This document shows, piece after piece, positions 1,591 to 41,427 of a stretch of 41,737 bases of DNA. The notes beneath the pieces are model-generated. The model ran no database searches and had not been told where the DNA came from. It saw only the letters and a program-made list of their open reading frames with translations. Both the position numbers and the translations under genes were made by a program. The stretch spans positions 1 to 41,737 of the forward strand of contig ONDU01000003.1 of NCBI GenBank assembly GCA_900316615.1. Direction: 5' to 3'. The stretch's first letter is position 1. Every line of letters starts with the position of its first letter. Origin of the DNA: an uncultured Eubacteriales bacterium (lineage in GTDB: Bacteria > Bacillota > Clostridia > Oscillospirales > Acutalibacteraceae).

Positions 1591-1683
1591 GGCGATTGCA
1601 GACCCGTGAACAAGTTCACGGGTGATTTAAAGCGAAACGCTTTAAATCCGTCAAAAGCGTTCGCTTTTGACGCTGCAATCGCC
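1591..1683 (-). repeat. Cloverleaf palindromic element, copy A
   Basis: An outer stem of 11 bp (GGCGATTGCAG at 1591-1601 with CTGCAATCGCC at 1673-1683) encloses three perfect hairpins with no bases left between them: 1602-1611/1614-1623 (10 bp, loop AA), 1624-1634/1638-1648 (11 bp, loop AAA) and 1649-1659/1662-1672 (11 bp, loop TT). By hairpin order it is in the same orientation as copies D and E. It sits 36 bases after the thrS stop. No U-tract follows. The conserved flank of the other copies is not clear here. Confidence 0.85.
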
Positions 1684-1719
1684 TAATCCCTGCTTATCCG
1701 CAATTTTTTTGATGTAAGG

Positions 1720-3666
1720 TCAGATTGCCTTGCTGTCTATTTCTTCTTTTGCCTTAGCTATGAAGTCCTCTGCCGTAAACGCTCCAATATCTCCGAGCTT
1801 TCTTGAGCGAACAGAAACTGTACCGTTTTCAACGTCTTTATCTCCCATAAGAAGCATATAAGGTACTTTCTCAAGCTGAGCCTCTCTGATTTTATATCCT
1901 ATCTTTTCGCTTCTTGTATCAAGCTCGCATCGGATTCCCACAGCCTGAAGCTTTTTTTCAACCTCTTTCAGAGCATCAATATGCCTGTCAGCTATCGGCA
2001 GCAGCTTGACCTGAACAGGTGCAAGCCATAACGGAAATGCTCCTGCATATTTTTCAATAAGCAGTGCAAGCGTTCTTTCGTAGCAGCCTATTGAAGTTCT
2101 GTGAATAATGTAGGGATTTTTCTTTGTACCGTCCCTGTCCACATACTTCATACCGAATTTTTCAGCAAGCATCTGGTCAATCTGTATCGTTATGAGAGTA
2201 TCTTCTTTTCCGTAAACGTTTCTTATCTGAATATCCAGCTTGGGACCGTAGAATGCAGCCTCTCCTATACCTATTTCGTAAGGAAGCTCAAGCTTGTCAA
2301 GTATACGCTTCATTATACCCTGAGCCTCGTCCCACTGCTCCTGTGTACCTATATATTTCTCTCTGTCATCAGGATCCCACTGCGAAAATCTGTAGGAAAC
2401 GTCATCATAAAGTCCCAACGTCTTAAGCATATATATTGCAAGCTCCAGACAGTTTTTGAACTCGTCCTCAAGCTGTTCAGGCGTACACATAAGATGTCCC
2501 TCTGAGATTGTAAATTGTCTTACTCTTATAAGACCATGCATTTCTCCGCTGGCTTCATTTCTGAAAAGCGTAGATGTTTCATTATATCTAAGCGGCAAAT
2601 CTCTGTATGAGCGTTCCCTGTTTAGGTATGCCTGATACTGAAAAGGACATGTCATAGGTCTGAGGGCAAAAACCTCCTTGTCATTTTCCGCATCGCCTAA
2701 AACAAACATTCCGTCCCTGTAGTGATCCCAGTGACCTGAAATTTTATAAAGGTCGCTCTTTGCCATAAAGGGCGTTTTTGTAAGCAGCCAGCCACGCTTC
2801 TGCTCCTCGTCCTCTACAAATCTCTGCAAAAGCTGAATAACCCTTGCTCCCTTAGGAAGCATTATGGGCAAGCCCTGTCCTATCACATCTGAGGTTGTAA
2901 AAAGCTCAAGCTGTCTGCCAAGCTTGTTGTGATCCCTTGCTATAGCTTCCTCTCTCTGCTTGAGGTATTCATCAAGCATTGAAGCTTTCGGAAAGGCTGT
3001 TCCATATACTCTGCAAAGCTGTCTGTTTTTGCTGTCGCCTCTCCAATACGCTCCTGTACAGTTCAAAAGCTTGAATGCCTTAACTGCTCCTGTAGACATA
3101 AGGTGAGGGCCTGCACAAAGGTCAGTAAAATCCTCCTGCCTGTAAAAGCTTATAGGCTCACCCTTATCTGCATGCTCCTGTGCAAGCTCAACCTTGTACG
3201 GCTCCTGTCTTTCCCTAAGCATTTCAATCGCTTTATCAGGCGAAAGCTCGAATTTTTCTATAGCTATGTTGCTTTTTACTATAGCTTTCATTTCCTTTTC
3301 TATCTTTTCAATATCCTCTGTTGAAAAGGGCTTTTCTACATCAAAATCATAATAAAAGCCATTATCTATGGCAGGTCCTATAGCTATCTTAGCCTGAGGA
3401 TAAAGCCTTTTTACAGCCTGTGCAAGAATATGCGATGTTGTGTGCCAAAATGTCTTTTTTCCGTCCTTATCATCAAATGTGAGTATCTCAAGCTCACAAG
3501 CACTATCAGACTCAAGCACTGTTCTTAAATCCTTTACCTCACCGTTTAATCTTCCTGCACAAGCATTTTTGAAAATTCCGCCGCCGAGTGACTTCGCTAC
3601 ATCTGCTATTGTTGTTCCGTTATCGTATTCCCTTACAGAACCGTTTTTGAATTTTACACTTATCAT
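1720..3666 (-). CDS. thrS: Threonine--tRNA ligase
   Basis: A full-length class II threonyl-tRNA synthetase of 648 residues, charging tRNA-Thr in the cytoplasm. The N-terminal TGS domain covers about residues 1-62. The editing domain carries HTTSH at 75-79 and CAGPH near 185, the paired metal-type motifs that remove mischarged serine. The catalytic core shows LRPMTCP, RNEASGEMHGLIRVRQFT (motif 2) and IGCYERTLALLIE (motif 3), and the C-terminal anticodon-binding domain begins around WLAPVQV. The start follows GAAAGGATTGAG. Expression is controlled by the upstream T-box and promoter. The length matches the family norm and no key motif is missing. Confidence 0.97.
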   Translation of the reverse strand: MISVKFKNGSVREYDNGTTIADVAKSLGGGIFKNACAGRLNGEVKDLRTVLESDSACELEILTFDDKDGKKTFWHTTSHILAQAVKRLYPQAKIAIGPAIDNGFYYDFDVEKPFSTEDIEKIEKEMKAIVKSNIAIEKFELSPDKAIEMLRERQEPYKVELAQEHADKGEPISFYRQEDFTDLCAGPHLMSTGAVKAFKLLNCTGAYWRGDSKNRQLCRVYGTAFPKASMLDEYLKQREEAIARDHNKLGRQLELFTTSDVIGQGLPIMLPKGARVIQLLQRFVEDEEQKRGWLLTKTPFMAKSDLYKISGHWDHYRDGMFVLGDAENDKEVFALRPMTCPFQYQAYLNRERSYRDLPLRYNETSTLFRNEASGEMHGLIRVRQFTISEGHLMCTPEQLEDEFKNCLELAIYMLKTLGLYDDVSYRFSQWDPDDREKYIGTQEQWDEAQGIMKRILDKLELPYEIGIGEAAFYGPKLDIQIRNVYGKEDTLITIQIDQMLAEKFGMKYVDRDGTKKNPYIIHRTSIGCYERTLALLIEKYAGAFPLWLAPVQVKLLPIADRHIDALKEVEKKLQAVGIRCELDTRSEKIGYKIREAQLEKVPYMLLMGDKDVENGTVSVRSRKLGDIGAFTAEDFIAKAKEEIDSKAI

Positions 3667-3729
3667 ATATTCTCAATCCTTTCAATAAAATTTACAATTT
3701 TGAAATTCTCCAAGCTTCAAGCCGACAAA

Positions 3730-3976
3730 AATCAAAAGACCTCGTCCCAATAATGGGACGAGGTCTAAAACTCGTGGTTCCACCCAAATTCAGTGCAAAA
3801 ATGCACTCTTAATTTCACATATAACGGTGTTCACCGATATACCTTTATTCGGTATACAGCTCCAAGGCGGTAACCTGCGGAAAACTGCCTGCTTCGCTTT
3901 CAGCCTGTGCGATGCTCTCTGTTAAAGCGTTCACCCCGCAAATATTGTCCTTATCAGTGCTTTTGTAAGTATCACT
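3730..3976 (-). ncRNA. T-box leader of thrS (threonine, specifier ACC)
   Basis: On the minus strand the leader contains the T-box sequence GGGTGGAACCACG (about 3773-3785) followed by a strong terminator. Further upstream lie an AGAGAG motif (3915-3920) typical of stem I and a candidate specifier ACC at 3869-3871, read in the context GGTTACCGCC, which fits threonine. T-box leaders bind uncharged tRNA, here tRNA-Thr, to favour the antiterminator and let thrS be transcribed. The specifier assignment comes from reading the stem I context by eye and has not been checked by folding. Confidence 0.93.
3737..3766 (-). terminator. T-box regulated terminator
   Basis: A 12-bp perfect stem (arms AGACCTCGTCCC and its complement, 6-base loop) is followed on the minus strand by TTTTGATTTTT. 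It is the terminator half of the T-box switch; the antiterminator would use the T-box bulge bases just upstream. Confidence 0.93.
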
Positions 3977-3982
3977 TCGGAT

Positions 3983-4011
3983 ATAATAGCACTAATTACA
4001 CAATTAGTCAA
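3983..4011 (-). promoter_or_regulatory. Sigma-A promoter of thrS
   Basis: On the minus strand TTGACT (4006-4011), a 17-base spacer and TATTAT (3983-3988). The start of transcription would be near 3976, giving a leader of about 310 bases that contains the T-box. With the leader this accounts for the 400-base gap between 3667 and 4068. Confidence 0.75.
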
Positions 4012-4068
4012 TAGCCTTCGTAAATTTTTTATGAAACTTTAAACCTTCAGTGTAACATCGTCGTTTTA

Positions 4069-5235
4069 TCAATTTTTGCTGTCCTCTTCTATCCAGCTTA
4101 TAATATCATCTATATCCTTCATACTTTTTGAAAGCTCTTCATCATTGTCAAAATCATCTAAATCGTCCAACGCAGATTTTACATCTTTTCTGTCAAAATA
4201 TTTTTCCGAAGTAGGAGCATATTTTTCGGGGTTTTCATCGTCATACTGAATGTCATCAAGAATATTGTCAACGTCATCAAGGTCTTTGTTTACTTCCTCT
4301 TCAACGTCTGTTATATCTATGTGAGAATTTCCGGATTTTACACTGTCTGCCTGTGCAACCTCATCAACAAAAACATCGTCTGTATGAATTATTGAAACAG
4401 GCTTTGTTTTCTGTTCCATATCTTCCTTAATGTTAAGCGTTATCTCAATCATCATAAACAGAATATACATACCTACAAGCAGGAATGAAACAGTATTGAG
4501 TGAGCCCATAATATCATAGGAACCGTTTTCGCCTAACTGCTTTATTACATCAGCTACCGTGTAAACCGTTACAACAACTACTCCGGGCATACCGTAAAGG
4601 AAAAGTCCCTTTACAGGATTTTTACATTCTATTTCCTGATATATTATTGCTGCATTGAAAACGGCAAGTGTCAGAAATGCCATATAGAACAAATCCGTCA
4701 TATCAAATGCGTGTACAGACTGCTTCGTATAGCTTATAAATGTTGTGAAGAGCTTCACACAGCACCAAAGAGGTGCTGTTACCGAGAACACTCCCATATT
4801 TTTAGCAAAATTTCTTCCCGAAAAGGACGATATGGCCATAATAAGTATAGCTATACCTCCCAGTGTGCCGAAAACAACGTCCACGAAAGAAGCTACTGTT
4901 ATATTTATTCCTCCGTTTATCCCCGGAGAAAGCATATCCCCCAGACCTATTCCGGCATTGAATATTATACAGCCCGCACTGAGTACACCAAAAAGTCCTG
5001 CAAGAAAATTCGTCTTTGGTCTGTATTTGCAGGGAGTTTTTCTGTCAGCCATACAAAGAAGCAGCAAAACAAAAAACAGCACTGCCACCATACATGTGTA
5101 TACTACCCATATCATTCCGCTGCTCAGAAAACCCGTATCAACTTCGTTTTCTACAAACAAAAGCTGATATACTCTCAGTACAACGGACAAAACAGCTACA
5201 GGTATGAACGGTATCCACGAAAGTTTAATTTTCAT
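4069..5235 (-). CDS. Multi-pass membrane protein with acidic cytoplasmic tail, unknown function
   Basis: I do not recognise this 388-residue protein. About eight hydrophobic segments fill residues 8-270, several separated by short charged turns. From about residue 285 the protein is hydrophilic and very acidic, rich in Asp and Glu (for example DITDVEEEVNKDLDDVDNIL), and ends in DIDDIISWIEEDSKN. No catalytic motif is visible. The start follows AGAGGTGTAGTT, and a promoter lies at 5342-5370. It is read towards thrS but is separated from it by the thrS promoter and T-box. An acidic tail of this kind might bind a partner or stay disordered; this is a guess. Confidence 0.75.
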   Translation of the reverse strand: MKIKLSWIPFIPVAVLSVVLRVYQLLFVENEVDTGFLSSGMIWVVYTCMVAVLFFVLLLLCMADRKTPCKYRPKTNFLAGLFGVLSAGCIIFNAGIGLGDMLSPGINGGINITVASFVDVVFGTLGGIAILIMAISSFSGRNFAKNMGVFSVTAPLWCCVKLFTTFISYTKQSVHAFDMTDLFYMAFLTLAVFNAAIIYQEIECKNPVKGLFLYGMPGVVVVTVYTVADVIKQLGENGSYDIMGSLNTVSFLLVGMYILFMMIEITLNIKEDMEQKTKPVSIIHTDDVFVDEVAQADSVKSGNSHIDITDVEEEVNKDLDDVDNILDDIQYDDENPEKYAPTSEKYFDRKDVKSALDDLDDFDNDEELSKSMKDIDDIISWIEEDSKN

Positions 5236-5341
5236 AACTACACCTCTGATTTTTTGTATCAGGAAATTTTTTATATAAACTCATATCCACACTAAGAACG
5301 TAATAAATATTTATATAAACAAACTCCTGCCGATACCCTTA

Positions 5342-5370
5342 ATTTTATTCTAATATAAGGAAGATGTCAA
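5342..5370 (-). promoter_or_regulatory. Promoter of the acidic-tail membrane protein
   Basis: On the minus strand TTGACA (5365-5370), 17 bases, TAAAAT (5342-5347). It lies in the 178-base divergent region shared with the SpoIID-like gene; no equally clear promoter was found for that plus-strand gene. Confidence 0.7.
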
Positions 5371-5413
5371 TACAAAATTTGTTTTAAACTATGTCAAAAA
5401 GGAAAGATAATTT

Positions 5414-6514
5414 ATGAAAAAAAATATTTCTGCAATATTATTCACACTTATTGCAATATCAGCAGCTCCTTTAATATCCATCGGAATAAACAACAATGCC
5501 TATGACGGATACACGGACAAAAACACATTTACAATACATCAGGACAGCAAAACAAAAAAAGCTTCAGCAACAGAAAACACTGTCGCTGAAAGCACATCAT
5601 TTTCTGCTCCTTCCGAAAAAGCCTCTGATACAAAGCAAAGAACGAAAAGCTCTGCAGTGCAAAATCTTTCCTTCAAAATATACGACAAAGCCGTAAAAAG
5701 CATAATAACCGTAAGTGATTTCGATTTTTGCTGCGGAGCTGTTATGACCGAAACAGATTTGGACATTCCATATGAGGCACTAAAGGCTGAAATAATTGCT
5801 TTGCATACTTATTATTCATACATCAGAAATGAAAGCCGTGCTGAAAATAAAAGCTTCGACTTTGAATGTAACACAAAGGTATGGGAGACTTATGTAAGTG
5901 AATCCGAGCTTAAAGAAAAGCTGCGTGATACATTTTCAGAAAGCTATGATACCGTAAAAAATGCTGTATCGGAAGTAAGCGATACATTTGTTGTTTTTGA
6001 CGGCAAGCCCTGTATGACAAAATATTTTGAAATATCGTCAGGAAAAACATTTTCATATAAAGAAATTTTCGGCAGTGATATTCCCTATCTCAGAAGCGTT
6101 CCTTCTCCGCTGGACGTTACGGCAAACAATTACAAAACAAAAATAAGCCTGTCGCCAAAGGAATTTGACGACAAGCTGAAAAAATATTTCGGCAGTTATT
6201 CTCCTGAAAAGGAGATTTCCGAAAACATAAAGAATATTTCTAAAACAGAAAACAACGCAGTTTCTTCGGTGGAAATAGGTAACATAAAGGCTGACGGCGG
6301 AAGGCTTGCGGAAATTTTCTCGCTGAGAAGCCGCTGCTTTGATATATCCTACGGCAACCAGCTTTACACATTTACTGTATGCGGCTGCGGTGAAAACATA
6401 GGTATGAGCAAATTCGGTGCCTGTAAAATGGCTGAGCAGGGCAGCAGCTTTACAGAAATATTAAGGCATTATTTTCCGTCAGCCGAAATAAAAAGCAGTT
6501 TCTCCCCTGTTTAA
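5414..6514 (+). CDS. SpoIID/LytB-domain protein, divergent
   Basis: A 366-residue exported protein. Residues 1-25 form a signal peptide or anchor; residues 30-85 are a Ser/Thr/Lys-rich linker; the rest is a SpoIID/LytB domain. SpoIID enzymes are lytic transglycosylases that act on peptidoglycan. The family glutamate is present at about E113 in AVMTETDL, followed by IPYEALKAEIIALHTYYSY, where family members usually read EALKAQAVAARTYA. The C-terminal signature is VCGCGENIGMSKFGACKMAEQG, against the usual GxGHGVGMSQxGA: the His is replaced by Glu and the Gln by Lys. The fold is clear but activity is doubtful. The start follows AAAAAGGAAAG. It stands alone and converges with the nitroreductase. 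Confidence 0.8.
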   Translation: MKKNISAILFTLIAISAAPLISIGINNNAYDGYTDKNTFTIHQDSKTKKASATENTVAESTSFSAPSEKASDTKQRTKSSAVQNLSFKIYDKAVKSIITVSDFDFCCGAVMTETDLDIPYEALKAEIIALHTYYSYIRNESRAENKSFDFECNTKVWETYVSESELKEKLRDTFSESYDTVKNAVSEVSDTFVVFDGKPCMTKYFEISSGKTFSYKEIFGSDIPYLRSVPSPLDVTANNYKTKISLSPKEFDDKLKKYFGSYSPEKEISENIKNISKTENNAVSSVEIGNIKADGGRLAEIFSLRSRCFDISYGNQLYTFTVCGCGENIGMSKFGACKMAEQGSSFTEILRHYFPSAEIKSSFSPV

Positions 6515-6528
6515 TGTTTTCACTCCAA

Positions 6529-6583
6529 AAATTCTGAATTTTACGTTTTTCTGTTTATAAGTTTTGATAAATAATCAGAATTT
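6529..6583. terminator. Weak shared terminator between convergent genes
   Basis: AAATTCTGA (6529-6537) pairs with TCAGAATTT (6575-6583) across a long AT-rich loop; U-rich stretches follow on both strands. The right arm includes the nitroreductase stop codon. The long loop makes this a low-confidence call. Confidence 0.35.
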
Positions 6584-7093: not shown

Positions 7094-7108
7094 TTTCTTT
7101 TCTCTCCT

Positions 7109-7567
7109 TTAATTTGTATTTATATTTTCTGCAATATCTTTTATTTTTTCTATTGCATCTCTGTATTTTATATGCTCAAGAAATGATATTACGGCTGTTC
7201 CGAACAGTGCTGTAATTATCCAGTATACCCACGAATGAAAAATCGCAAATGAAAATATCAATGCCAAAGCATTCCACAAAATTAGAAATCCATAAAATGC
7301 TCTGCATTTTATTTTTATATGCAATGTTGATTTTCCGTTATGCCCGTTAATTTTTCCTTGAATAGCAGGATTAAATACCTTTCCCCTGTTCAATGAGTCT
7401 GTTCCTGTATCTGCATAGACTGTGAATGTATCGCTTTCAAATTCTCCGCTGTAGAAATCGGCATTTTGTCCGCTTTCTTCTGAGGTTCTGCTCTTTAATT
7501 CATCAAGTATATTTTCAGGTGAAGCATTTATTTCATAAATGAATTTGGGATAAAAAGGATTTTTCAT
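7109..7567 (-). CDS. Small two-helix membrane protein, unknown function
   Basis: I do not recognise this 152-residue protein. Residues 1-85 are soluble and contain several predicted strands. Two adjacent hydrophobic segments at about 92-110 and 113-129 (FYGFLILWNALALIFSF and WVYWIITALFGTAVISF) form a helical hairpin, and residues 131-152 are a charged C-terminal helix. The start follows AGGTTTATTTAAT. It lies 51 bases after trpS and 15 bases before the nitroreductase, so it is probably co-transcribed with both. Confidence 0.7.
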   Translation of the reverse strand: MKNPFYPKFIYEINASPENILDELKSRTSEESGQNADFYSGEFESDTFTVYADTGTDSLNRGKVFNPAIQGKINGHNGKSTLHIKIKCRAFYGFLILWNALALIFSFAIFHSWVYWIITALFGTAVISFLEHIKYRDAIEKIKDIAENINTN

Positions 7568-7618
7568 ATTAAATAAACCTCGTTACTTTGCTTACCGTTA
7601 ATTTTATGTTTTACATAT

Positions 7619-8638
7619 TTATTTAAGCACAAAGCCTATCTTCTTTACTGCCTTATCGAGTGTACGCTGTGATATTTTTTCCGCTATCTGTGCGGATTTT
7701 TCGTAACACTCCTTTAAATATGCCTTATCCTTTATAAACTGTGAAAATCTTTCCTGTACGGGTCTTAATTCCTCTACTACAGCTTCTCCGACTGCCGTTT
7801 TAAAATCGCCGTAGCCCTTGCCTTCAAATTCCTTTTCTATTTCTTCATATGTTTTTCCTGTCACTGCGGAATATATTCCCATAAGGTTGTTTATTCCGTC
7901 CTTGCCCTCACCGTATTTTACACAGGCTTCGCTGTCGGTTACGGCTCTTTTGAATTTCTTCATTATTACCTCGGGCTTGTCAAGAACCGCTACATATGAA
8001 TTTATGTTTTCATCAGACTTGCTCATCTTCTTTGCAGGCTCCTGGAGTGACATTACTCTTGCTCCTGTTTTTGGAATATAACCGTCGGGAACCTTGAAAA
8101 CATTTCCGTAAATTCCGTTAAATCTTTCTGCGATATTTCTTGTAAGCTCAAGATGCTGCTTCTGGTCTGCACCTACGGGAACGAGATCTGCCTGATAGAG
8201 CAGAATATCGGCTGCCATCAAAGCAGGATATGTAAACAAGCCTGCGTTTATGTTGTCTGAATGCTTTGCGGACTTGTCCTTGAACTGCGTCATTCTGGAA
8301 AGCTCTCCGAACTGTGTATAGCAGTTGAGTATCCATGCCAGCTGTGCATGTGTGCTGACGTGGCTCTGTATAAAGAAAAGACTTTTTTCCACATCAACTC
8401 CGCAGGCTAAAAGAAGTGCATATGCTTCATATATATTTGCCCTGAATTTTGCAGGCTCCTGTCTTACGGTGATTGCGTGTAAATCGGCAAGTGCATATAT
8501 ACAGTTGAAATCTTCCTGAAGCTTTATCCAGTTTTTCAAAGCTCCGAGATAATTTCCGAGAGTTATTGTTCCTGTAGGCTGTATTGCACTGAAAATTACT
8601 TTTTTTCTTTCCTGTGACTGTGCTGTCTGTTCGCTCAT
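7619..8638 (-). CDS. trpS: Tryptophan--tRNA ligase
   Basis: A complete class I tryptophanyl-tRNA synthetase of 339 residues. The HIGH-type motif appears as PTGTITLGN at about 21-29 and the KMSKS motif as KKMSKSDENINS near residue 208. The typical DQKQHLELTRNIAERFN block for tryptophan and ATP binding is intact. The GGAGG ribosome site lies inside the end of the aminotransferase gene, whose stop is one base from this start, so the two are translationally close and share a transcript. The length is normal. Confidence 0.97.
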   Translation of the reverse strand: MSEQTAQSQERKKVIFSAIQPTGTITLGNYLGALKNWIKLQEDFNCIYALADLHAITVRQEPAKFRANIYEAYALLLACGVDVEKSLFFIQSHVSTHAQLAWILNCYTQFGELSRMTQFKDKSAKHSDNINAGLFTYPALMAADILLYQADLVPVGADQKQHLELTRNIAERFNGIYGNVFKVPDGYIPKTGARVMSLQEPAKKMSKSDENINSYVAVLDKPEVIMKKFKRAVTDSEACVKYGEGKDGINNLMGIYSAVTGKTYEEIEKEFEGKGYGDFKTAVGEAVVEELRPVQERFSQFIKDKAYLKECYEKSAQIAEKISQRTLDKAVKKIGFVLK

Positions 8639-8639
8639 T

Positions 8640-9845
8640 TTAATTTTCCTCCTTAGCTTTGCAGAGTTCCATCAAAAGCTCTCCCAGTATTTTTATACCC
8701 TTTTCAAGCTGCTCGTCCGTAGGAGTTGAGAAGTTAATTCTGAAAGTATGGCAAAGCTCGTTTTCATCGGTAAGAAATGCATTTCCGGGTACAACGCATA
8801 CTTTTCTCATAACTGCCTCCTTGCAGAATTTCAGCATATCTATATAATCAGGAAGCTTACACATTATGAACAGACCTCCGTCAATTTTGTCATATGTAAT
8901 GTAGGGTACCATATACTCATCGAGCAAATCCATCATATACTGTGCTTTTTTTCTGTAAAGGCTTCTGAGCCTGTCAAGATGTCCCTCAAAATCGTACTTT
9001 GTCATAAATTCGTATGCCACCATTTGCGACCATATGTTTGTATGAACATCTGAGCCCTGCTTGCATACTACCATTTTCTGAACTACGGGTGCAGGAGCGA
9101 CACACCAGCCTACTCTTATTCCCGGTGAAAGTACCTTTGAGAATGAACCCGAATATATAACTATACCGTCCTTATCAAGTGATTTTATAGAAGGTATGTC
9201 TTCCCCTGAATAACGCAAATCACCATAGGGGTTATCCTCAAGTATCATAACTCCGTACTCTTTTGCAAGCTCGTATACTTTCTTACGCTTTTCAAAGCTC
9301 ATTGTTACGCCTGACGGATTCTGAAAGTTCGGTATTACATATATGAATTTTACGTTTTTCTCACTTTTCAGCTTTTCTTCGAGAATTTCCGTGTTTATTC
9401 CGTCTGATTCAACAGGTACTCCGCAAAGCTTTGCGTTATATGAACGGAAAGAATTGAGAGAGCCTATAAAGCTGGGTGCTTCGCATATTACCGTATCACC
9501 CTCGTTGCAGAGAGATTTTGTCGCTAAATCCATAATCTGCTGTGCTCCGGACGTGATTATAAGCTCATCATTTTCAGTGCCGATGCCGTATTTTTGTTTC
9601 ATATAACTTTTAAGATGCTCTCTGAGAGGCGTATAACCCTCTGTTACGCTGTACTGGAGAGCCTCTATGGGACGCTCTGAAAGGATTTTTGCTGAAATTT
9701 CCGCTACTTCCTTACAGGGAAATGCATCGGGAGCGGGATTTCCTGCCGACAATGATATTACCTGAGGGTCTGCTGCATACTTGAAAATTTCTCTTATAGC
9801 TGAGGGCTTCAACGTATTAACCCTGTCACTGAAATTGTATTCCAT
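8640..9845 (-). CDS. PLP-dependent class I aminotransferase (LysN/MocR-like fold)
   Basis: A 401-residue fold-type I aminotransferase. Visible active-site elements are SLSAGNPAPDAFP at 31-43, the PNFQNPSG loop at about 172-179, ILEDNPYGDLRY with the pyridine-binding Asp at 204, and SGSFSKVLSPGIRVGW with the Schiff-base Lys at about 237. This pattern is typical of 2-aminoadipate or branched/aromatic amino acid aminotransferases; the substrate cannot be fixed. Despite similarity to MocR C-terminal domains there is no N-terminal DNA-binding domain. It leads the operon with trpS and has its own promoter at 9880-9908; the start follows AGGAG. Confidence 0.88.
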   Translation of the reverse strand: MEYNFSDRVNTLKPSAIREIFKYAADPQVISLSAGNPAPDAFPCKEVAEISAKILSERPIEALQYSVTEGYTPLREHLKSYMKQKYGIGTENDELIITSGAQQIMDLATKSLCNEGDTVICEAPSFIGSLNSFRSYNAKLCGVPVESDGINTEILEEKLKSEKNVKFIYVIPNFQNPSGVTMSFEKRKKVYELAKEYGVMILEDNPYGDLRYSGEDIPSIKSLDKDGIVIYSGSFSKVLSPGIRVGWCVAPAPVVQKMVVCKQGSDVHTNIWSQMVAYEFMTKYDFEGHLDRLRSLYRKKAQYMMDLLDEYMVPYITYDKIDGGLFIMCKLPDYIDMLKFCKEAVMRKVCVVPGNAFLTDENELCHTFRINFSTPTDEQLEKGIKILGELLMELCKAKEEN

Positions 9846-9879
9846 AATATATCAACTCCTGAATTTTTATATATACTGA

Positions 9880-9908
9880 ATTTTATCATATAAATACAAT
9901 TTATTCAA
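9880..9908 (-). promoter_or_regulatory. Promoter of aminotransferase-trpS operon
   Basis: On the minus strand TTGAAT (9903-9908), 17 bases, TAAAAT (9880-9885). It is back to back with the HAD gene promoter 35 bases away. Confidence 0.7.
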
Positions 9909-9943
9909 GGTATCGGAATTGACATATGATGAATTTTATTTTA

Positions 9944-10809: not shown

Positions 10810-11760
10810 TTATTTTTCATTCTTAACTATATCCTCAACAACCTTTTCTATATTGCTCTGGCAAAGACCAAACAATTCCAAAAGCTCCTTTGCAGGTCCC
10901 GAATAGCCAAACTCATCATTTACGCCTATTTTTGTAACCTTAACAGGACACTCAGAACAAACAACCTCGCATACAGCGTCACCTAAGCCGCCTACTATAT
11001 TATGCTCTTCTACTGTTACAATTCTGCCTGTTTCCTTAGCAGCCTTTACAATAAGCTCTCTGTCAATAGGCTTTATTGTATGGATATTTATAAGTCTTGC
11101 GTTTATGCCCTTCTGCTCAAGCGATTTTACAGCCTTGAGAGATTCGTTTACAACAAGACCTGTTGCAACGACTGTAATATCGTTTCCCTCGTGGAGTGTT
11201 ATACCCTTTCCGAGTTCAAATTTATAATTATCGGGGTCATTGAAGCTGTCTATAGCAAGTCTGCCAAGACGGATATATATAGGTCCTTTGTATTCATAAG
11301 CAGCCTTTACCGCCTCAATCATTTCGTAATGGTCGGCAGGGTTAAGAACCATCATACCGGGGATAGCTCTCATAATTGCTATGTCTTCAATACACTGGTG
11401 TGTTGCACCGTCCTCACCGGTAGAGATACCTGCATGTGAACCTGCTATTTTTACGTTAAGACCGGGATAAGCCACTGAGTTTCTTATCTGCTCAAAGGCA
11501 CGTCCCGTTGCAAACATAGCAAATGATGCTGCAAAGGGAACTTTTCCTGCTGTAGCCAGACCTGCGGCAACTCCTATCATATTACCCTCAGCGATACCGC
11601 AGTTTATGAAGCGTTCGGGAAATTCCTTTTTAAAAATACCTGTTTTTGTTGCCGCAGCAAGGTCTGCGTCAAGAACAACTACATCATCGTGTGTTTTAGC
11701 CAGCTCGCACAGTGCAAGACCAAAGCTTTCTCTTGTTGCCTTATTAATAATCTTTGCCAT
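10810..11760 (-). CDS. Transketolase, C-terminal subunit (pyrimidine-binding and C domains)
   Basis: A 316-residue protein corresponding to the second half of transketolase. It contains the pyrimidine-binding domain (DADLAAATKTG, FINCGIAEGNMIGVAAGLA with the catalytic Glu, and the cofactor-contacting stretch around SHAGISTGEDGATHQ) and the transketolase C-terminal domain from about residue 190. It needs the N-terminal subunit for ThDP and metal binding. The start overlaps the stop of the N half by one base (TAATG), so the two are translationally coupled and should be made in equal amounts. Split transketolases are common in anaerobic Firmicutes and archaea, so this is not a frameshift. Confidence 0.93.
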   Translation of the reverse strand: MAKIINKATRESFGLALCELAKTHDDVVVLDADLAAATKTGIFKKEFPERFINCGIAEGNMIGVAAGLATAGKVPFAASFAMFATGRAFEQIRNSVAYPGLNVKIAGSHAGISTGEDGATHQCIEDIAIMRAIPGMMVLNPADHYEMIEAVKAAYEYKGPIYIRLGRLAIDSFNDPDNYKFELGKGITLHEGNDITVVATGLVVNESLKAVKSLEQKGINARLINIHTIKPIDRELIVKAAKETGRIVTVEEHNIVGGLGDAVCEVVCSECPVKVTKIGVNDEFGYSGPAKELLELFGLCQSNIEKVVEDIVKNEK

Positions 11761-33648: not shown

Positions 33649-33735
33649 AAAATTAACTCCTCAATATAAAATTTATATACAAAATACAACTTGTTTTCTT
33701 TTATTAAAGCTCATTCCTTCGGCTTTGCTCATACT

Positions 33736-33830
33736 GCGATTGCAGTCCGCAGCGGCATATGCCGCTGCGGAAATTAAGGCTTAGCCTTAATTTTTGTTTC
33801 GGACATTTGTCCGAAACAGTCTGCAATCGC
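33736..33830 (+). repeat. Cloverleaf palindromic element, copy B
   Basis: The outer stem GCGATTGCAG (33736-33745) with CTGCAATCGC (33821-33830) encloses a perfect 26-base palindrome (33746-33771), AATTAAGGCT/AGCCTTAATT (33772-33781/33783-33792) and TGTTTCGGACA/TGTCCGAAACA (33795-33805/33808-33818). The left flank TTCGGCTTTGCTCATACT is shared with copies C, D and E. It is antisense to the operon and ends 8 bases from the pgsA stop. Confidence 0.85.
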
Positions 33831-33838
33831 CGCACTTT

Positions 33839-34480: not shown

Positions 34481-34563
34481 TAAAAGAATTTCTCTCCTTT
34501 TCAAACCATTCCTGCAAAAATCAAGAATTCTTGTTAGCAGATAAATAAATATTTACCTACGCT

Positions 34564-35334: not shown

Positions 35335-35496
35335 ATCTCATCAACCCATATCATTATTCAGTTATTATCAGTTAATATACCATATTATCCCCAAAAATAC
35401 AATTAGTAAATTGTTAACAAATCAGGCTTATATATAAAATACGACCATTTTATTACTCTGTTCCACTCTTTTTCAGCCTTCGGCTATGCTCACACT

Positions 35497-35593
35497 GCGA
35501 TTGCAGACGGCAAAAGCGTACCGCTTTTGCCAAATTTCAGGCTTAATCCTGAAATTTCGTTTCGGATAAATATCCGAAACGGTCTGCAATCGC
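35497..35593 (+). repeat. Cloverleaf palindromic element, copy C
   Basis: A 12-bp outer stem (GCGATTGCAGAC at 35497-35508 with GTCTGCAATCGC at 35582-35593) encloses GGCAAAAGCG/CGCTTTTGCC (35509-35531), AAATTTCAGG/CCTGAAATTT (35532-35557) and CGTTTCGGATA/TATCCGAAACG (35558-35581). There are no bases between the helices. The left flank TTCGGCTATGCTCACACT is shared with B. It is antisense to the operon. Copy D is its near-identical inverse. Confidence 0.87.
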
Positions 35594-35622
35594 CTTGTCT
35601 CCCACGCAGGTCTGTTATAATC

Positions 35623-36855
35623 CTATTTTATTTTTAACGCACTTATCTCACTTGTTCCGAGTACATAGATATTCTTTTCATCTGAAAATGTAATTCCCTT
35701 TGAATCAAGTCCTACTCTGTATTCATTTAAAAGCTTTTCCTTTTTAATGTCAAAAACCGAAACTTTATTATCTGCCAATACTGCGGCTTTATTCCCGAAT
35801 ATATCGACCGCTACCGTTGCAAGACCTGTTTTCGTATGAGTAACAGAGCCGTTTTGCGATATATTCCAAAGCTCACAGCTTTTTCCGTCCTCAAACGGCG
35901 AAAGAGAAAGCACCATATTGCTTTGTGTTATTTCTTTACTTATAAGATTATATCCGTTATATGTAAATTCATACTTGTTCTTATAGTCAGATGTAACTAC
36001 CATAGCAGACTTATCTCCTACTATTGCAACATTTCCGTTATCAAAAAATGCTGCACTGTATATGGTAACATTGCTAAAGTCAATTTTTGACTCCGGCTTA
36101 TCATTTGAAAAGTCAATAATATATACCTTCGATACAATGCTTCCTTCATTTGCGTCCAGACCGCAGACCACAGCCTTTGTTGCATCGTGATTCAGCGAAA
36201 TTGATACAGCATAGCATTCGGAAAAATAATAGGCATACTTCTTAGTATTATCCTTGTTGAACACCGTAAGCTTTGATGTATAGCCGTCTTTTTTGGATAA
36301 TATCGCATAACAGCCGTTATCAATTATCACTGCCTGAAATATAATATCCTCCATATTACCTTCATAAACCGTTCCTGAAGCAGACTGTATTTCATAACCG
36401 CTTCCCTGTCTGTCATATATTATACTGTAATTCTTGCAGGATTTCATCGCAGGGGAAGAATATTTTATTCTTTTGTCAACAGTCACCCCTCCGCTTGCGT
36501 TTATTACCTGGAACTGTGTTTCGCTTATATACGCAATATTGTTGTTAAGAACGCATACATCACTGGCATTTACAGACTTTCCTTTTATCTTTACAGGAAA
36601 ACCTTCTCCCTTTACCTGAGAAGAAAATATGCTTCCGATAAGCGAATCGGGAGATACAAACCTCCATACAGCAGCAATACCTACAACCAGAACCAAAATT
36701 ATTCCTATTATTAAAACGTTTCTTACCTTCTTGTTTTTGAATTTCGGTAATTTTTTTCTTTTTTTTATTTCCCTGTCCCTTTCGTATTCCTCTATGGGCT
36801 TATCCTCATAGCTGAGCATCTCTCTTTTATTTTTTCGTTTCTTTTTTATATTCAT
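35623..36855 (-). CDS. DUF5711 membrane-anchored beta-propeller-like protein
   Basis: A 410-residue protein with a basic cytoplasmic start (KKKRKNKRE), one membrane helix at about 46-66, and an extracytoplasmic domain of about 330 residues made of repeated four-strand blocks (NNNIAYISETQFQVINASGG, SKLTVFNKDNTKKYAYYF, NVAIVGDKSAMVVTSDYKNKYEF) as in seven-bladed propellers. This is the DUF5711 pattern in Clostridia; no function is assigned. I prefer ATG 36855, with AGAGGTGAG just upstream, over a GTG three codons earlier. It follows truA by about 80 bases. Confidence 0.7.
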   Translation of the reverse strand: MNIKKKRKNKREMLSYEDKPIEEYERDREIKKRKKLPKFKNKKVRNVLIIGIILVLVVGIAAVWRFVSPDSLIGSIFSSQVKGEGFPVKIKGKSVNASDVCVLNNNIAYISETQFQVINASGGVTVDKRIKYSSPAMKSCKNYSIIYDRQGSGYEIQSASGTVYEGNMEDIIFQAVIIDNGCYAILSKKDGYTSKLTVFNKDNTKKYAYYFSECYAVSISLNHDATKAVVCGLDANEGSIVSKVYIIDFSNDKPESKIDFSNVTIYSAAFFDNGNVAIVGDKSAMVVTSDYKNKYEFTYNGYNLISKEITQSNMVLSLSPFEDGKSCELWNISQNGSVTHTKTGLATVAVDIFGNKAAVLADNKVSVFDIKKEKLLNEYRVGLDSKGITFSDEKNIYVLGTSEISALKIK

Positions 36856-36935
36856 AAAACTCACCTCTGATTCAGCTTAACCCTCATCTATACTCAGGAA
36901 ACAAATTCCAATATTTAACCTTGCTTCTTATACGG

Positions 36936-37709
36936 TCAGTAATTGACCCTGTTCAGATAAAGACCACAGGCCGGTGCGGTAGGCCCTGCCTTTGCCCTGT
37001 CCTTAGCCTCTATTATACCGCTTATGCAGTCGGGACTGAACTTTCCCTGAGCTATTCTTATAAGAGTTCCCACCATTATGCGAACCATATTATATAAAAA
37101 GCCGTCTGCCTCTACTGTCATAATTACCATATTCCCGTCACGCTCTACACGAAAATCCATTACCGTTCTGCACATATTTTCAGTATCTCTGTTATCCAGT
37201 GTGCAGAATGAAGTATAGTCGTGTCTTCCTATGTATGCTTTGCAGCATTCGTTCAGAAGCTCTGTATCTATAGGAAATTTATAGTGATATGCCAGCCCGT
37301 CAAGAAAAGGATTTCTTACATCAGCGTTCCATATCTTATATATATACTGCTTACTTTTACAGCTGTATCTTGCATGAAAATCCTTTCCTACCTCCTTAAC
37401 GTCCAGAACTGATATATCATAAGGTAAAAATCTGTTAAGTGCCGCAAGCAATCTGCGGCACGGAATTTTATGTACCATTTTAAGGCTTATGCAGTACATA
37501 TTTGCATGTACTCCGCTGTCAGTTCTCGAACAGCCCTTGATACTGTAATCTATATCTCCTATTATGCTTTCAAGCGCTTTCTGAAATACCTCCTGCACCG
37601 TAACAGCATTACTCTGTATCTGCCAACCATGATAATTTTTTCCGTTATACGATATTGTTATAAGAAAATTTCTTATTTCACTATCATTTCCGAAAACATC
37701 ACATTGCAT
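36936..37709 (-). CDS. truA: tRNA pseudouridine(38-40) synthase
   Basis: A 257-residue TruA that makes pseudouridine at positions 38-40 of the tRNA anticodon arm. The catalytic aspartate is in GCSRTDSGVHA, and FLITISYNGKNYHGWQ, NVAVT-type RNA-binding stretch, YTSFCTLD and FLYNMVRIMVGTLI are all family blocks. GGGGG lies 6 bases before the ATG start at 37709, inside the end of ecfT; the two genes overlap by 37 bases. Placement after ecfT is the typical Firmicutes order. Confidence 0.95.
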   Translation of the reverse strand: MQCDVFGNDSEIRNFLITISYNGKNYHGWQIQSNAVTVQEVFQKALESIIGDIDYSIKGCSRTDSGVHANMYCISLKMVHKIPCRRLLAALNRFLPYDISVLDVKEVGKDFHARYSCKSKQYIYKIWNADVRNPFLDGLAYHYKFPIDTELLNECCKAYIGRHDYTSFCTLDNRDTENMCRTVMDFRVERDGNMVIMTVEADGFLYNMVRIMVGTLIRIAQGKFSPDCISGIIEAKDRAKAGPTAPACGLYLNRVNY

Positions 37710-38491
37710 AGTATTACCCCCACTAAAACAAATACCGAAAAAATTATAAGACCTGCATCTCTCGCTCCTGTTTTAAGAACCTTCATTCTTGTCCTTCCAT
37801 CTCCTCCACGGTAGCAGCGGCATTCCATAGCTACCGCAAGCTCATATGCTCTGTTAAATGATGAAACAAAAAGAGGTACAAGGACAGGTATCATTGCTTT
37901 TAATCTCTGCACAATATTTCCGCTTTCCATATCCGCTCCCCTTGACTTTTGTGCATTGGTTATTTTTTCCGTTTCCTCAAGGAGCGTAGGAATAAACCGT
38001 AAGGCTATCGTCATCATCATAGCTATTTCGTGTACCTTTATATGAAAAACTTTAAGCGGCTTCATAAGCCTTTCCAGTGCATCCGTAAGGTCTGTAGGCG
38101 ATGTTGTATAGGTAAGAATACAGCTTATCAGAATAAGTGCTATTATTCTGATTGATACAAATGCTGCGTTGCTTATTCCATTCCACGTTATTTTCAAAAA
38201 CTGCCACTGCCATATTGCTTCACCTTTACCGTAAAATATGTTGAGAACTGATGTAAAAATCAATATCATAACAACAGGCTTCAAACCTCTGAAATACATT
38301 TTTACAGGTATACCGGTCATGATAACTCCAAGTAAAACAACAGCAACCATAAAGACCAGCGAAACAAAATTTCCTGTTACAAATAAAAAGATTATGTATG
38401 CCGTCACAAGCACAATCTTAACCCTTGGGTCAGCTTTATGTATAACGGACGTACCGGGAAAAAACTGACCGAGCGTAATATCCCTTATCAA
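37673..38491 (-). CDS. ecfT: ECF transporter transmembrane subunit EcfT
   Basis: A 272-residue membrane protein joining the two ATPases and the vitamin-binding S components of group II ECF importers. It begins LGQFFPGTSVIHKADPRVKIV, the EcfT start, and has two Arg-rich coupling helices, NAQKSRGADMESG and AVAMECRCYRGGDGRTR; the second reads ECRCYRG where EARGYRG is more usual. About six membrane segments are visible. The start is TTG at 38491 with GGGGGG 10 bases upstream. It follows ecfA2 by 43 bases and overlaps truA. No S-component gene is in the window. Confidence 0.93.
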   Translation of the reverse strand: MIRDITLGQFFPGTSVIHKADPRVKIVLVTAYIIFLFVTGNFVSLVFMVAVVLLGVIMTGIPVKMYFRGLKPVVMILIFTSVLNIFYGKGEAIWQWQFLKITWNGISNAAFVSIRIIALILISCILTYTTSPTDLTDALERLMKPLKVFHIKVHEIAMMMTIALRFIPTLLEETEKITNAQKSRGADMESGNIVQRLKAMIPVLVPLFVSSFNRAYELAVAMECRCYRGGDGRTRMKVLKTGARDAGLIIFSVFVLVGVILCNVMFSEMIVK

Positions 38492-38534
38492 ATGACATTT
38501 TCCCCCCTGTTTTTTATTTTTACTTTCAAAAATT

Positions 38535-39389
38535 TCAGAATTTCTTTAAAAGAGGCAAAAGCTCTCTGACTGCTTCCTCAACCGTAAGTATACCTTTTTT
38601 TACCCCATACCCTCTGTCGGAAAGCATATTCATTATGTACGTTATCTCAGGAATTTTAAGTCCCGTTTGTTTCAGACGTTCGCCCTGTGAGAATACGTTT
38701 TCTGTCGTATCGTACATCTCGAGCCTTCCCTTATTCATAACAATCACCCTGTCGGATATTTTTGCAATATCCTCCATACTGTGCGATACCAAAATTACTG
38801 TGTTTCCGTTTTTTCTGTGATATTCACGGATTTTTGAAAGAAGAAATTCTCTTCCCATAGGGTCAAGTCCTGCTGTAGGCTCGTCCAGTACAAGAACCTC
38901 AGGCTGCATTGCCATAATTCCTGCTATAGCCGCTCTCCTTTTTTCTCCACCAGAAAGCTCAAAAGGAGATTTTTCAAGTAAATTATCCGGCAAGCCTGCA
39001 AACTCTGCTGCATTCCTCACTGTTTTATCAAGCTCTTGTCCCGAAATTCCTTTATTGACCGCCCCGTATGCAATATCACTGTATACTGTGTCTTCAAAAA
39101 GCTGATACTCAGGATACTGAAAAACCATACCTACCCTGAAGCGTACTTTCCTTATCTCTTTAGGCTTTTTCCATATATTTTCTCCGTCAAGAAGAATTTC
39201 ACCGCTGTCAGGTCTTATAAGTCCGTTTAACATCTGCATAAGCGTAGATTTTCCCGAACCTGTGTGACCTATTATACCGATAAATTCACCTTTCTCTATT
39301 GAAAAGCTTATATCACTTACCGCCGTTTTTTCAAACGGAGTACCTGCTCCGTATTTATAAGTCAGATGTTTTGCTTCAATAATATTCAA
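38535..39389 (-). CDS. ecfA2: ECF transporter ATPase EcfA2
   Basis: A 284-residue ABC ATPase of the ECF module. Walker A is GHTGSGKST, the Q-loop is MVFQYPEYQLFEDTVYSDIAYG, the signature is LSGGEKRRAAIAG, Walker B is VLVLDEPTAGLDP and the switch is VILVSHSMEDI. The QYPEYQLFE Q-loop and C-terminal extension are EcfA2 (CbiO2) traits. It forms a heterodimer with EcfA1. Copy D of the cloverleaf repeat separates it from ecfA1, an uncommon break in this normally tight operon. Confidence 0.95.
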   Translation of the reverse strand: MNIIEAKHLTYKYGAGTPFEKTAVSDISFSIEKGEFIGIIGHTGSGKSTLMQMLNGLIRPDSGEILLDGENIWKKPKEIRKVRFRVGMVFQYPEYQLFEDTVYSDIAYGAVNKGISGQELDKTVRNAAEFAGLPDNLLEKSPFELSGGEKRRAAIAGIMAMQPEVLVLDEPTAGLDPMGREFLLSKIREYHRKNGNTVILVSHSMEDIAKISDRVIVMNKGRLEMYDTTENVFSQGERLKQTGLKIPEITYIMNMLSDRGYGVKKGILTVEEAVRELLPLLKKF

Positions 39390-39446
39390 ATCTGTACTAC
39401 TCCCAAATTATAAAAATAGTGAACCCTCAGTTTTGCTGAATATCAG

Positions 39447-39543
39447 GCGATTGCAGACCGTTTCGGATATTTATCCGAAACGAAATTTCAAGCTTAAGCT
39501 TGAAATTCGGCAAAAGCATGCCGCTTTTGCCGTCTGCAATCGC
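39447..39543 (-). repeat. Cloverleaf palindromic element, copy D
   Basis: A 12-bp outer stem (39447-39458 with 39532-39543) encloses CGTTTCGGATA/TATCCGAAACG (39459-39482), the perfect palindrome of AATTTCAAGCTT (39484-39507), and GGCAAAAGC/GCTTTTGCC (39509-39531). It is the near-identical inverse of copy C (about 89 of 97 by hand). The right flank, AGTATCAGCAAAGCCGAAAG, is the shared flank in inverse and overlaps the last codons of ecfA1. Confidence 0.88.
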
Positions 39544-39547
39544 AGTA

Positions 39548-40396
39548 TCAGCAAAGCCGAAAGTCAGTGCCTGCAAGCATTTCTTCAAGAAGTCTTATGC
39601 ATTCATCAGGCTTTAAGGGTAAAGTATCTGTTTTTATTCCGTTCTTTTTCAGCATATGTATAAGCTGTGCAGACTGCGGTATATCAAGCGAATGCTCTCT
39701 TAAAAGCTCCGCCTGAGAAAAAACTTCGCTTGGATTTCCCTGAGTAAGTATACTTCCTTTGTCCATGACAATTACCCTATCTGCCAAAACAGCCTCGTCC
39801 ATATAATGTGTTATAAGAATTATCGTGATTCCGTATTCCCTGTTCAAAAAACGTATTGTGTCTGTTACTTCCTTTCTTCCCTGCGGGTCAAGCATGGCAG
39901 TAGGCTCGTCCAGAACAATGCACTCAGGCTGCATTGCTATTATCCCTGCAATAGCTACTCTCTGCTTCTGTCCTCCTGAAAGCTTGTGAGGTGCGTGCCT
40001 TCTGTATTCGTACATATTTACGGCCTTTAGTGCTTTATCTACACGCTCTCTTATCTCCCTTGGGTTAACTCCGAGATTTTCACAACCGAAAGCGACATCT
40101 TCCTCAACTATCGTAGCTACAAGCTGATTATCAGGATTTTGAAGTACAAGTCCGACTTTTTTTCTTATTTCATAAACCTCGTCCTCAGTTTCCGGAACAA
40201 TTCCATCTACCGATATCGTACCCTTATCAGGAAGCAGCAGTGCATTGAAAAGCTTAGCCATCGTAGACTTTCCGCAGCCGTTATGACCAAGTAATGCAGT
40301 AAATTTTCCTTTTTCTATTTCCAGTGATATATTATCAAGAACAGTATCTTTTCCGTATGAGAAGCTTACGTTCTTTACACTTATAAAGCTTTCCAT
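39548..40396 (-). CDS. ecfA1: ECF transporter ATPase EcfA1
   Basis: A 282-residue ABC ATPase. Walker A is GHNGCGKSTMAK, the Q-loop is LVLQNPDNQLVATIVEEDVAFG (the NPDNQ pattern of EcfA1), the signature is LSGGQKQRVAIAG, Walker B is CIVLDEPTAMLDP and the switch is ILITHYMDEA. It pairs with EcfA2. It follows the RlmK-like gene by 7 bases, with only a weak ribosome site. The final codons, F-R-L-C and the stop, lie in the conserved flank of repeat copy D, so the repeat has set the C terminus. Confidence 0.95.
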   Translation of the reverse strand: MESFISVKNVSFSYGKDTVLDNISLEIEKGKFTALLGHNGCGKSTMAKLFNALLLPDKGTISVDGIVPETEDEVYEIRKKVGLVLQNPDNQLVATIVEEDVAFGCENLGVNPREIRERVDKALKAVNMYEYRRHAPHKLSGGQKQRVAIAGIIAMQPECIVLDEPTAMLDPQGRKEVTDTIRFLNREYGITIILITHYMDEAVLADRVIVMDKGSILTQGNPSEVFSQAELLREHSLDIPQSAQLIHMLKKNGIKTDTLPLKPDECIRLLEEMLAGTDFRLC

Positions 40397-40403
40397 ATTT
40401 TAA

Positions 40404-41264
40404 TTACCTTATCCACAATGCAGTTGAACCGCATGGAAGCACCAGCCCTGTATCTGTAACCTTTAAACCGATTTCATCTGCGGCAACACTGCCTCCTAAT
40501 TTCGGTGTGAGAACAGCACCCAGCAAATATTCCATAACTGCCGGCGATAATCCTGTCGTATATGAATTAAGTATAAAAAACCTTGCGTCATTCGATAAAA
40601 TCTCGGAGCAAAGCTCAACCAACGGATAAAGCTGTTCTTCGAGCTTCCATACTTCACCACCCGGACCTCTTCCGTATGACGGCGGATCCATAATAATTCC
40701 GTCATACTTGTTTCCTCTTCGTTTTTCACGCTGTACAAATTTTATACAGTCGTCAACAAGCCATCTGACAGGTCTGTCAGATAAACCGGATGCTTCAGCA
40801 TTTTCCTTAGCCCATTGTACCATACCCCTTGAAGCGTCCACATGACATACCTTCGCTCCCGCATTGAGACACGCAAGCGTTGCTCCTCCGGTATACGCAA
40901 AAAGATTAAGTACGTTAAGCTGTTTATCAGATTTTCTTATAATACCGTCAACAAAATCCCAGTTTGCCGCCTGCTCCGGAAATACTCCCGTATGCTTAAA
41001 GCCCATAGGCTTTATTCTGAACACTATATTCCTATAGCTTATCTGCCACACAGCAGGTATTTTTCTGTATTGCTCCCATTTTCCGCCTCCTGAAGAAGAA
41101 CGATGATAACGTGCATGGGCATTTCTCCACAAAGGATTTTCTTTTGGCGTATTCCAGATTATCTGCGGATCAGGTCTTATAAGAATAATATCTCCCCAAC
41201 GCTCAAGTCTTTCACCCTGTGATGTATCTATAAGCTCATAATCTTTCCAATTAGCTGAATGCAA
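40404..41264 (-). CDS. RlmK-like class I SAM methyltransferase
   Basis: A 286-residue SAM-dependent methyltransferase. Motif I is LNLFAYTGGATLACLNAGA, followed by VCHVDASRGMVQWAKENA, and motif IV is DGIIMDPPSYGRG, the DPPSYG form found in RlmI/RlmK-type rRNA methyltransferases. The N-terminal 100 residues with ERWGDIILIRPDPQIIW match stand-alone proteins of this group in Clostridia. The start is TTG at 41264, 9 bases after GGAGG. It sits after glmM and 7 bases before ecfA1. The exact rRNA position is unknown. Confidence 0.85.
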   Translation of the reverse strand: MHSANWKDYELIDTSQGERLERWGDIILIRPDPQIIWNTPKENPLWRNAHARYHRSSSGGGKWEQYRKIPAVWQISYRNIVFRIKPMGFKHTGVFPEQAANWDFVDGIIRKSDKQLNVLNLFAYTGGATLACLNAGAKVCHVDASRGMVQWAKENAEASGLSDRPVRWLVDDCIKFVQREKRRGNKYDGIIMDPPSYGRGPGGEVWKLEEQLYPLVELCSEILSNDARFFILNSYTTGLSPAVMEYLLGAVLTPKLGGSVAADEIGLKVTDTGLVLPCGSTALWIR

Positions 41265-41332
41265 CTGAAGTTACCTCCGAATTTCAATTTTTTATGCTTA
41301 ATCCATATGCAGGTGTATGTACGTTTCTTTAT

Positions 41333-41427
41333 GCGATTGCAGTCCCCTTACGGACAAGTCCGTAAGGGGCTGAAGCGGCTGTGCCGCTTCAAGGTCAAAA
41401 GACTTGTCTTTTGACGGCTGCAATCGC
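41333..41427 (-). repeat. Cloverleaf palindromic element, copy E
   Basis: GCGATTGCAG (41333-41342) pairs with CTGCAATCGC (41418-41427). Inside are CCCCTTACGGAC/GTCCGTAAGGGG (41344-41355/41358-41369), TGAAGCGGC/GCCGCTTCA (41371-41379/41383-41391) and GTCAAAAGAC/GTCTTTTGAC (41394-41403/41406-41415). The right flank AGTATGCTGAC, with AAGGCTG further on, is a diverged form of the shared flank. It lies between glmM and the RlmK-like gene. Confidence 0.85.

Follow-up and report, generated by a model that had tools for sequence, protein, structure and literature searches.

The window analysed here is a 41,737-nt stretch of DNA from an uncultured Eubacteriales bacterium of the family Acutalibacteraceae (GenBank assembly GCA_900316615.1, contig ONDU01000003.1, positions 1 to 41,737 of the forward strand). 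It carries five copies, here termed A to E, of an element with a mean length of 95 bp, in which 10-bp inverted ends enclose three back-to-back hairpins, and which recurs throughout the window's genome (G000) and that of a second species of the same genus (G001, the sister species). Comparison of the two species showed that the two arms of a hairpin have changed jointly at many more positions than independent change would produce, and that loops, and once the whole interior, were inverted in place. The element is best explained as a dispersed and non-autonomous piece of intergenic DNA, about 95 bp long, that was probably once mobile. An initial annotation, made from the letters of the window alone, had described five elements sharing an outer stem and three hairpins; all five lie where it had placed them, and the predicted fold of each copy agrees with that description, including the detail that copies A and C leave only their loops unpaired. 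As delimited from sequence and predicted fold, the copies, together with one example of the weakly conserved flank discussed below, are as follows.

Copy A, 1591-1683: outer stem 1591-1601/1673-1683; hairpins 1602-1623, 1624-1648 and 1649-1672; one extra G-C pair beyond the 10-bp ends.
Copy B, 33736-33830: outer stem 33736-33745/33821-33830; hairpins 33746-33771, 33772-33792 and 33795-33818; ortholog in G001 at L236:10311-10405, with paired changes.
Copy C, 35497-35593: outer stem 35497-35508/35582-35593; hairpins 35509-35531, 35532-35557 and 35558-35581; no element at the orthologous site of G001 (L236 near 8640-8730).
Copy D, 39447-39543, in the orientation opposite to C: outer stem 39447-39457/39533-39543; hairpins 39459-39482, 39484-39507 and 39508-39532; ortholog at L236:4816-4912, with paired changes.
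Copy E, 41333-41427: outer stem 41333-41343/41417-41427; hairpins 41344-41369, 41371-41391 and 41394-41415; relative to the ortholog at L236:2921-3015, the loop of hairpin 3 is inverted (CTTG/CAAG) and hairpin 2 shows a paired change and one broken pair.
Flank outside copy C, 35475-35496, plus strand: AGCCTTCGGCTATGCTCACACT, illustrating the flanks rich in G+C, about 20 nt long, that adjoin many copies.

Taken from one exact 10-bp end to the other, the copies cover 1592-1682, 33736-33830, 35497-35593, 39447-39543 and 41333-41427. The DNA minimum free energy of the five copies ranges from -40.9 to -43.5 kcal/mol (z -11.7 to -12.6), and none of 200 shuffled sequences folded as well. The initial annotation had recognised no named family, and none emerged either from Rfam, which at gathering thresholds returned no match at any element in the window, or from the literature searched. 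The single Rfam match in the window lies elsewhere: a T-box leader at 3751-3966 on the minus strand, upstream of a threonyl-tRNA synthetase-like gene at 1720-3666.

The follow-up proposed by the initial annotation, a search for further copies, yielded more than 100 additional ones in G000 (1.83 Mb) and likewise in G001. G000 contains 144 + 149 occurrences of the end word GCGATTGCAG, against 0 + 1 for the reversed control, and paired exact 10-bp ends 55-84 bases apart number 132 in G000 (control, 0) and 131 in G001. No such pair was found in the remaining 116 of the 118 genomes searched, four other genomes of the genus among them. With the ends relaxed to 8 bp, the counts rise to 163 in G000 and 153 in G001, and a search with these ends across 300 genomes of the family gave five others with one match each, none with hairpins by eye. 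Among named contigs that encode a protein of the window, the ten ranked best are from Clostridia (Ruminococcus, Oscillospiraceae, Butyricicoccus and others), at 51-58% identity, in a ranking that may omit very near genomes; this points to a host from the same group.

Parsing of stretches that total 854 kb in G000 and 986 kb in G001 gave 126 and 92 copies, respectively, 218 in all; the parser favours pairing and thereby somewhat flatters percentages of Watson-Crick pairs. In this set, 8,955 of the 8,999 pairs of the outer and hairpin stems are Watson-Crick. In the outer stem, positions 1-8 hardly vary, yet even there changes occur in pairs; of the 187 copies in the first set, for example, 176 have G-C at position 7 and 10 have T-A. 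The hairpins are each of a loose type, one often near TCAAAAGC, one near AATTCAAAGC and one G+C-rich, with loops mostly of 3 or 4 bases, and their sequences vary widely: distinct inner arms in G000 number 56 among 122 for hairpin 1, 96 among 121 for hairpin 2 and 71 among 100 for hairpin 3. That the copies differ by paired changes, as the initial annotation had noted in the window, was borne out by 97 non-redundant G000 copies, which are 99.7% paired over 24 hairpin columns. Pairing falls to 42.0% (standard deviation 0.9, 300 shuffles) once the 3' arms are reassigned among these parser-selected copies, so that the covariation whose testing had been suggested is strong. A chance origin of the elements is ruled out by the end-word controls, the fold shuffles and the arm reassignment.

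The end sequence and the fold are the most conserved parts of the element, not the sequences of its hairpins. On each side, about 20 bases are G+C-rich and contain degenerate common words (TGCGGCT, CTTCGCT, CGCTCAG), and because these words are shared between flanks, the unit probably extends into them, to about 135 bp in all. The similarity of the left and right flanks of the same copy is 5.96, compared with 5.51 after shuffling. Shorter versions with the same ends also exist, with a single hairpin (L168:6183, and L156 near 795 with 8-bp ends) or with two (L187:2960), and one locus has three hairpins in G000 and one in G001.

When the 126 copies of G000 were compared by their flanks with the G001 stretches, 47 loci carried the element in both species and 7 lacked a three-hairpin element in G001; of the remaining copies, 18 had flank matches that were unpaired and 54 had no flank match in these stretches. 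Because 47 of the 54 loci with both flanks matched carry the element in both species, its amplification is largely older than their split. An ungapped comparison of orthologs inflated one-sided changes in both sets compared and was replaced. Pairs and loops were counted at 46 loci, leaving out one pair of orthologs in which the whole element is inverted and keeping one pair of low similarity. Among 1,346 hairpin pairs, 69 (5.1%) changed on both sides and are still Watson-Crick, while 13 are mismatched in one genome only (11 by one-sided and 2 by two-sided change) and a single pair is mismatched in both. Calculated from these counts, independent change at the observed rate should produce about 4 two-sided pairs, of which few would be Watson-Crick. 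The proposal that selection or mechanism maintains the fold is therefore strongly supported as regards the upkeep of pairing, by the 69 against 13 pairs at orthologous loci as by the arm reassignment. Of the changed outer-stem pairs, 7 had altered on both sides and 8 in some other way, and a structure-blind gapped alignment of the elements still gave 53 two-sided against 30 broken pairs. Of the paired changes, 31 are of transition type and 38 of transversion type, compared with 959 to 816 in the flanks (p 0.14 for the difference); being no more transition-rich than the flanks, they show no sign of a route via G-U intermediates. Moreover, since paired changes affect 5.1% of pairs and divergence in the flanks is 13.4% per site, the hairpins are likely under an extra constraint, be it purifying selection or biased correction.

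The loops behave differently. They diverge at 33% of sites, against the 13.4% of the flanks, and among the 138 loops at the 46 loci, 115 are of equal length, of which 50 are identical and 65 differ. As many as 11 of these 65 are exact reverse complements of each other (shuffled mean 3.6, p 0.0003); plain reversal accounts for none, and plain complement for three, all AAA/TTT and also counted among the 11. An earlier test on fewer loci had given 8 inversions among 45 loops where 3.8 were expected (p 0.018). Allowing each loop to be inverted lowers the divergence to 17%, a decrease that arises by construction. At one of the 47 shared loci, the whole element is inverted inside collinear flanks (L199:1641 vs L155:7362).

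The explanation that we consider best as a whole, with a probability of about one half, is that of a once-mobile family of elements whose arms are homogenised and whose loops are inverted by template switching. An exposed strand would fold into hairpins during replication, and the polymerase would switch template between the two arms of a hairpin, so that a mutation in one arm would either be lost or spread to its partner arm, and the intervening loop would at times be copied in inverted form. Inversion of the whole element would be the same event with the outer stem serving as the arms, and the conserved ends would have been the recognition site of a mobilising enzyme. In published work on such quasipalindromes, template switching between inverted repeats yields both arm homogenisation and spacer inversion, in yeast genes and in ribosomal RNA (rRNA) hairpins (PMC8604942, PMC8794818). 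In the rRNA study, the null expectation was exceeded by multiple compensatory changes and by pure loop inversions, but not by single compensatory changes. Two-sided arm changes and exact spacer inversions both occur at the orthologous loci of our element, where the contrast with other intergenic hairpins is weak; the difference is that the process would here act on a whole repeat family.

Several observations weigh against this explanation, most of them from control hairpins. Although non-element hairpins of at least 9 bp, coding regions included, gave 10 two-sided and 62 broken pairs against 53 and 30 in elements by the same method (p 1.6e-10; 42 controls kept and 7 dropped), intergenic hairpins of at least 8 bp outside the family also show paired changes. 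By gapped alignment, the two-sided and broken counts are 48/26 in elements and 9/14 in intergenic controls (p 0.051); by re-parsing, 60/4 and 28/5 (p 0.27; controls kept and dropped in these two comparisons, 36/5 or 38/3); and by fixed placement, 55/73 and 11/33 (p 0.047; controls, 38/3), the element count in the last case skipping 13 of 138 hairpins. The ratio in elements varies with the way of counting, between 60/4 and 55/73, since small indels displace the arms. Inverted loops number 0 of 20 in intergenic controls and 11 of 65 in elements, a contrast that reaches only p 0.06. As the contrast is strong only against controls that include coding regions and weak against intergenic ones, upkeep of pairing may be general to intergenic hairpins in these genomes, by switching or by selection; many of the intergenic controls are themselves repeats or terminator-like. 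In addition, both genomes are drafts, of 98 contigs with about 9% missing for G000 and of 100 contigs, listed as 100% complete, for G001. In the only comparison with an independent assembly, contig L251 agrees with G001 at both of its elements.

Further points against it come from the genomic context and suit an explanation at the RNA level, in which the elements act in the 3' regions of messenger RNAs (mRNAs), through stability, as a barrier to RNases or in processing, and the fold is kept by selection. According to a crude caller of open reading frames, 156 of the 218 copies lie between tandem genes, 27 between convergent and only 17 between divergent ones, with 11 inside predicted reading frames and 7 at edges. 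The median distance of 38.5 nt from the upstream stop codon suits a role at mRNA 3' ends as well as tolerance of insertion, and 124 of the 156 tandem-context copies are nearer to the upstream stop than to the next start. Mispairs on the sense strand are also skewed in the direction predicted by RNA selection (11 G-T vs 5 A-C, p 0.11), and some of the other intergenic hairpins with paired changes are probably terminators. On the other hand, the loops are not conserved, being inverted or divergent at the rate given above, and paired changes lack a transition bias. The rate of non-Watson-Crick pairs, with contexts assigned by the same crude caller, is 0.55% between divergent genes (17 copies) and 0.45% between tandem genes (p 0.77), and orientation relative to the genes is weakly biased at most (90 to 66, p 0.065). 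An intrinsic terminator was rejected as an explanation: a T-run is found downstream in 12 of the 156 copies and on the opposite side in 11, and is missing downstream in the other 144. We regard selection on RNA as a possible but tentative explanation of the whole; it may contribute, and the evidence speaks against it as the sole cause. The initial annotation had left it open whether the fold is kept as DNA or RNA, and the hypervariable, inverted loops, together with the equal pairing between divergent genes, tilt the balance towards DNA without settling it. Paired changes would also arise by ectopic gene conversion, in which paralogous copies replace hairpins or whole elements and both arms change at once. 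Consistent with this, the three hairpins of one orthologous pair differ for the most part although the site is the same (similarity 0.64), and 17 copy pairs in G000 are at least 90% alike in all three hairpins; but elsewhere most arm pairs are unchanged between orthologs (1,263 of 1,346), and replacement by paralogs does not specially predict inversion of a loop in place, which makes gene conversion an unlikely source of the pattern.

As for mobility, the element can be compared with REP sequences and REPINs, the latter being inverted doublets predicted to form hairpins (PMC3116915). Short palindromes, inverted end tags around hairpins, more than 100 copies per genome and intergenic location are shared between our element and REPs, BIMEs and REPINs (PMC3116915, PMC3733652). 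That a Y1 (RAYT) transposase, the agent that the initial annotation had suggested looking for, mobilises the element by acting on hairpins in single-stranded DNA is nevertheless very unlikely: the PF01797 profile has no match in G000 or G001, whereas the controls gave matches in 5 of the 14 genomes searched, and two others of the genus (G002 and G003), both without the element, do have one. A Y1 gene might sit in the roughly 9% of G000 that its assembly lacks, but G001 is listed as complete. Further, the 10-nt tag GCGATTGCAG is neither GTAG nor CGTC, three hairpins lie between the tags, and hairpin sequences are not conserved between copies. Besides PF01797, the enzyme families searched were the reverse transcriptase PF00078, with no match in G000 or G001, and the TnpB-type PF07282, which was rejected because it does not track the element, matching 5 of 6 genomes of the genus (above the cut-off in 4) but not reaching the cut-off in G000. 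Inspection by eye of the 21 end words outside parsed copies in the analysed stretches, some of them ends of shorter versions and two truncated at the border of a stretch, revealed no version that carries a gene. As for the proposed check for empty sites, the 7 G000 loci without a three-hairpin element in G001 comprise window copy C, three absences with the flanks missing, one remnant, one other hairpin repeat and one single-hairpin form, and no target-site duplication was seen by eye at these loci, where missing segments often include the flanks.

Miniature inverted-repeat transposable elements (MITEs) are short, non-coding and dispersed, with inverted ends, and are present or absent at orthologous sites. 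The element shares all of these features, its ends being terminal inverted repeats, but its interior consists of three perfect hairpins, and neither a target duplication nor, among the families searched, a cognate transposase was seen. Repeated hairpin elements of sponge mitochondria (RHEs) resemble it in being dispersed and intergenic with loops more variable than stems, one sponge even having a triple-hairpin region. However, their stems are described as conserved, with substitutions in loops and a few complementary differences between two types (PMC2800124), while the stems of our element change too, in pairs, and its host is bacterial. No description of the element was found in the literature searched, including passages of PMC2267715, PMC3733652 and PMC12306157, and PMC13155455 contained none of the words looked for. 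It is best read as a dispersed REPIN/MITE-like family, set apart by its tag, by the lack of a detected Y1 gene and by hairpins that are unconserved yet perfect.

Spread by phage was considered and rejected. Neither a phage collection queried with copy B nor a plasmid collection queried with copy C gave a match, and none of the 121 relaxed-end matches listed, in 120 viral stretches, passed the hairpin filter. Three IMG/VR contigs matched, two of them without hairpins by eye; the third, L251, has two copies and phage genes, but shares 99.8% identity with G001 across 5.2 kb, and of the 7 genomes searched for its terminase gene 5 gave a match, namely all five of the same genus in that search (G005 left out). 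It looks like a resident prophage-type locus. The phage head/tail gene cluster itself occurs in L251, G001:C24 and G000:C69, with the terminase matching five same-genus genomes at 73-99% identity; in L251 and G001, three-hairpin elements lie between its tail genes, and orthologs of these are present in G000.

Other hairpin repeats were noticed along the way. Another Eubacteriales genome (G347, the source of contig L074; example at L074:18806-18900) has an independent family of multi-hairpin repeats between the ends CGTAGGG and CCCTACG, whose inner hairpins vary and whose terminal hairpins are of several types. The GTAGGG...CCCTAC-bounded form was found at 29 places with stricter ends (control, 0) and at 86 with looser ends (control, 5), both strands counted in each case. 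Its inner hairpins vary by what appear, from individual examples, to be paired changes in many sequences, such as GCAATCCC/GGGATTGC and GTCATTCCC/GGGAATGAC. Judged by its tag, the set resembles GTAG-tagged REPs; PF01797 has no match in G347. Within the genus of the window, another composite repeat (L156 near 11590-11740, L058 near 7560-7700) consists of clustered hairpins near CCAAAGGCTCTGCCTTTGG, CAAGCCTTTTGAAAGGCTTG and TTTAAGGGTTTCACCCTTAAA. Perfect hairpins of at least 8 bp number 1.9 per kb in G002 (L211-L220), 0.27 in G005 (L221-L230) and 0.86 in the analysed stretches of G000; the palindrome load varies strongly inside one genus.

Taken further, the element might represent a class that is inherited as a fold, with short conserved ends, three freely drifting hairpins whose arms rewrite each other, and spread as single-stranded DNA by a route other than Y1, a generalisation that we hold to be doubtful. 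Paired changes in stems are routinely taken as proof of selection on RNA structure. In the 654 hairpins of the 218 copies, from two related genomes, a large part of this signal may instead have its origin in the DNA, which loop inversion would betray, and with this set of elements the share of compensatory changes that are mutational can be tested directly.

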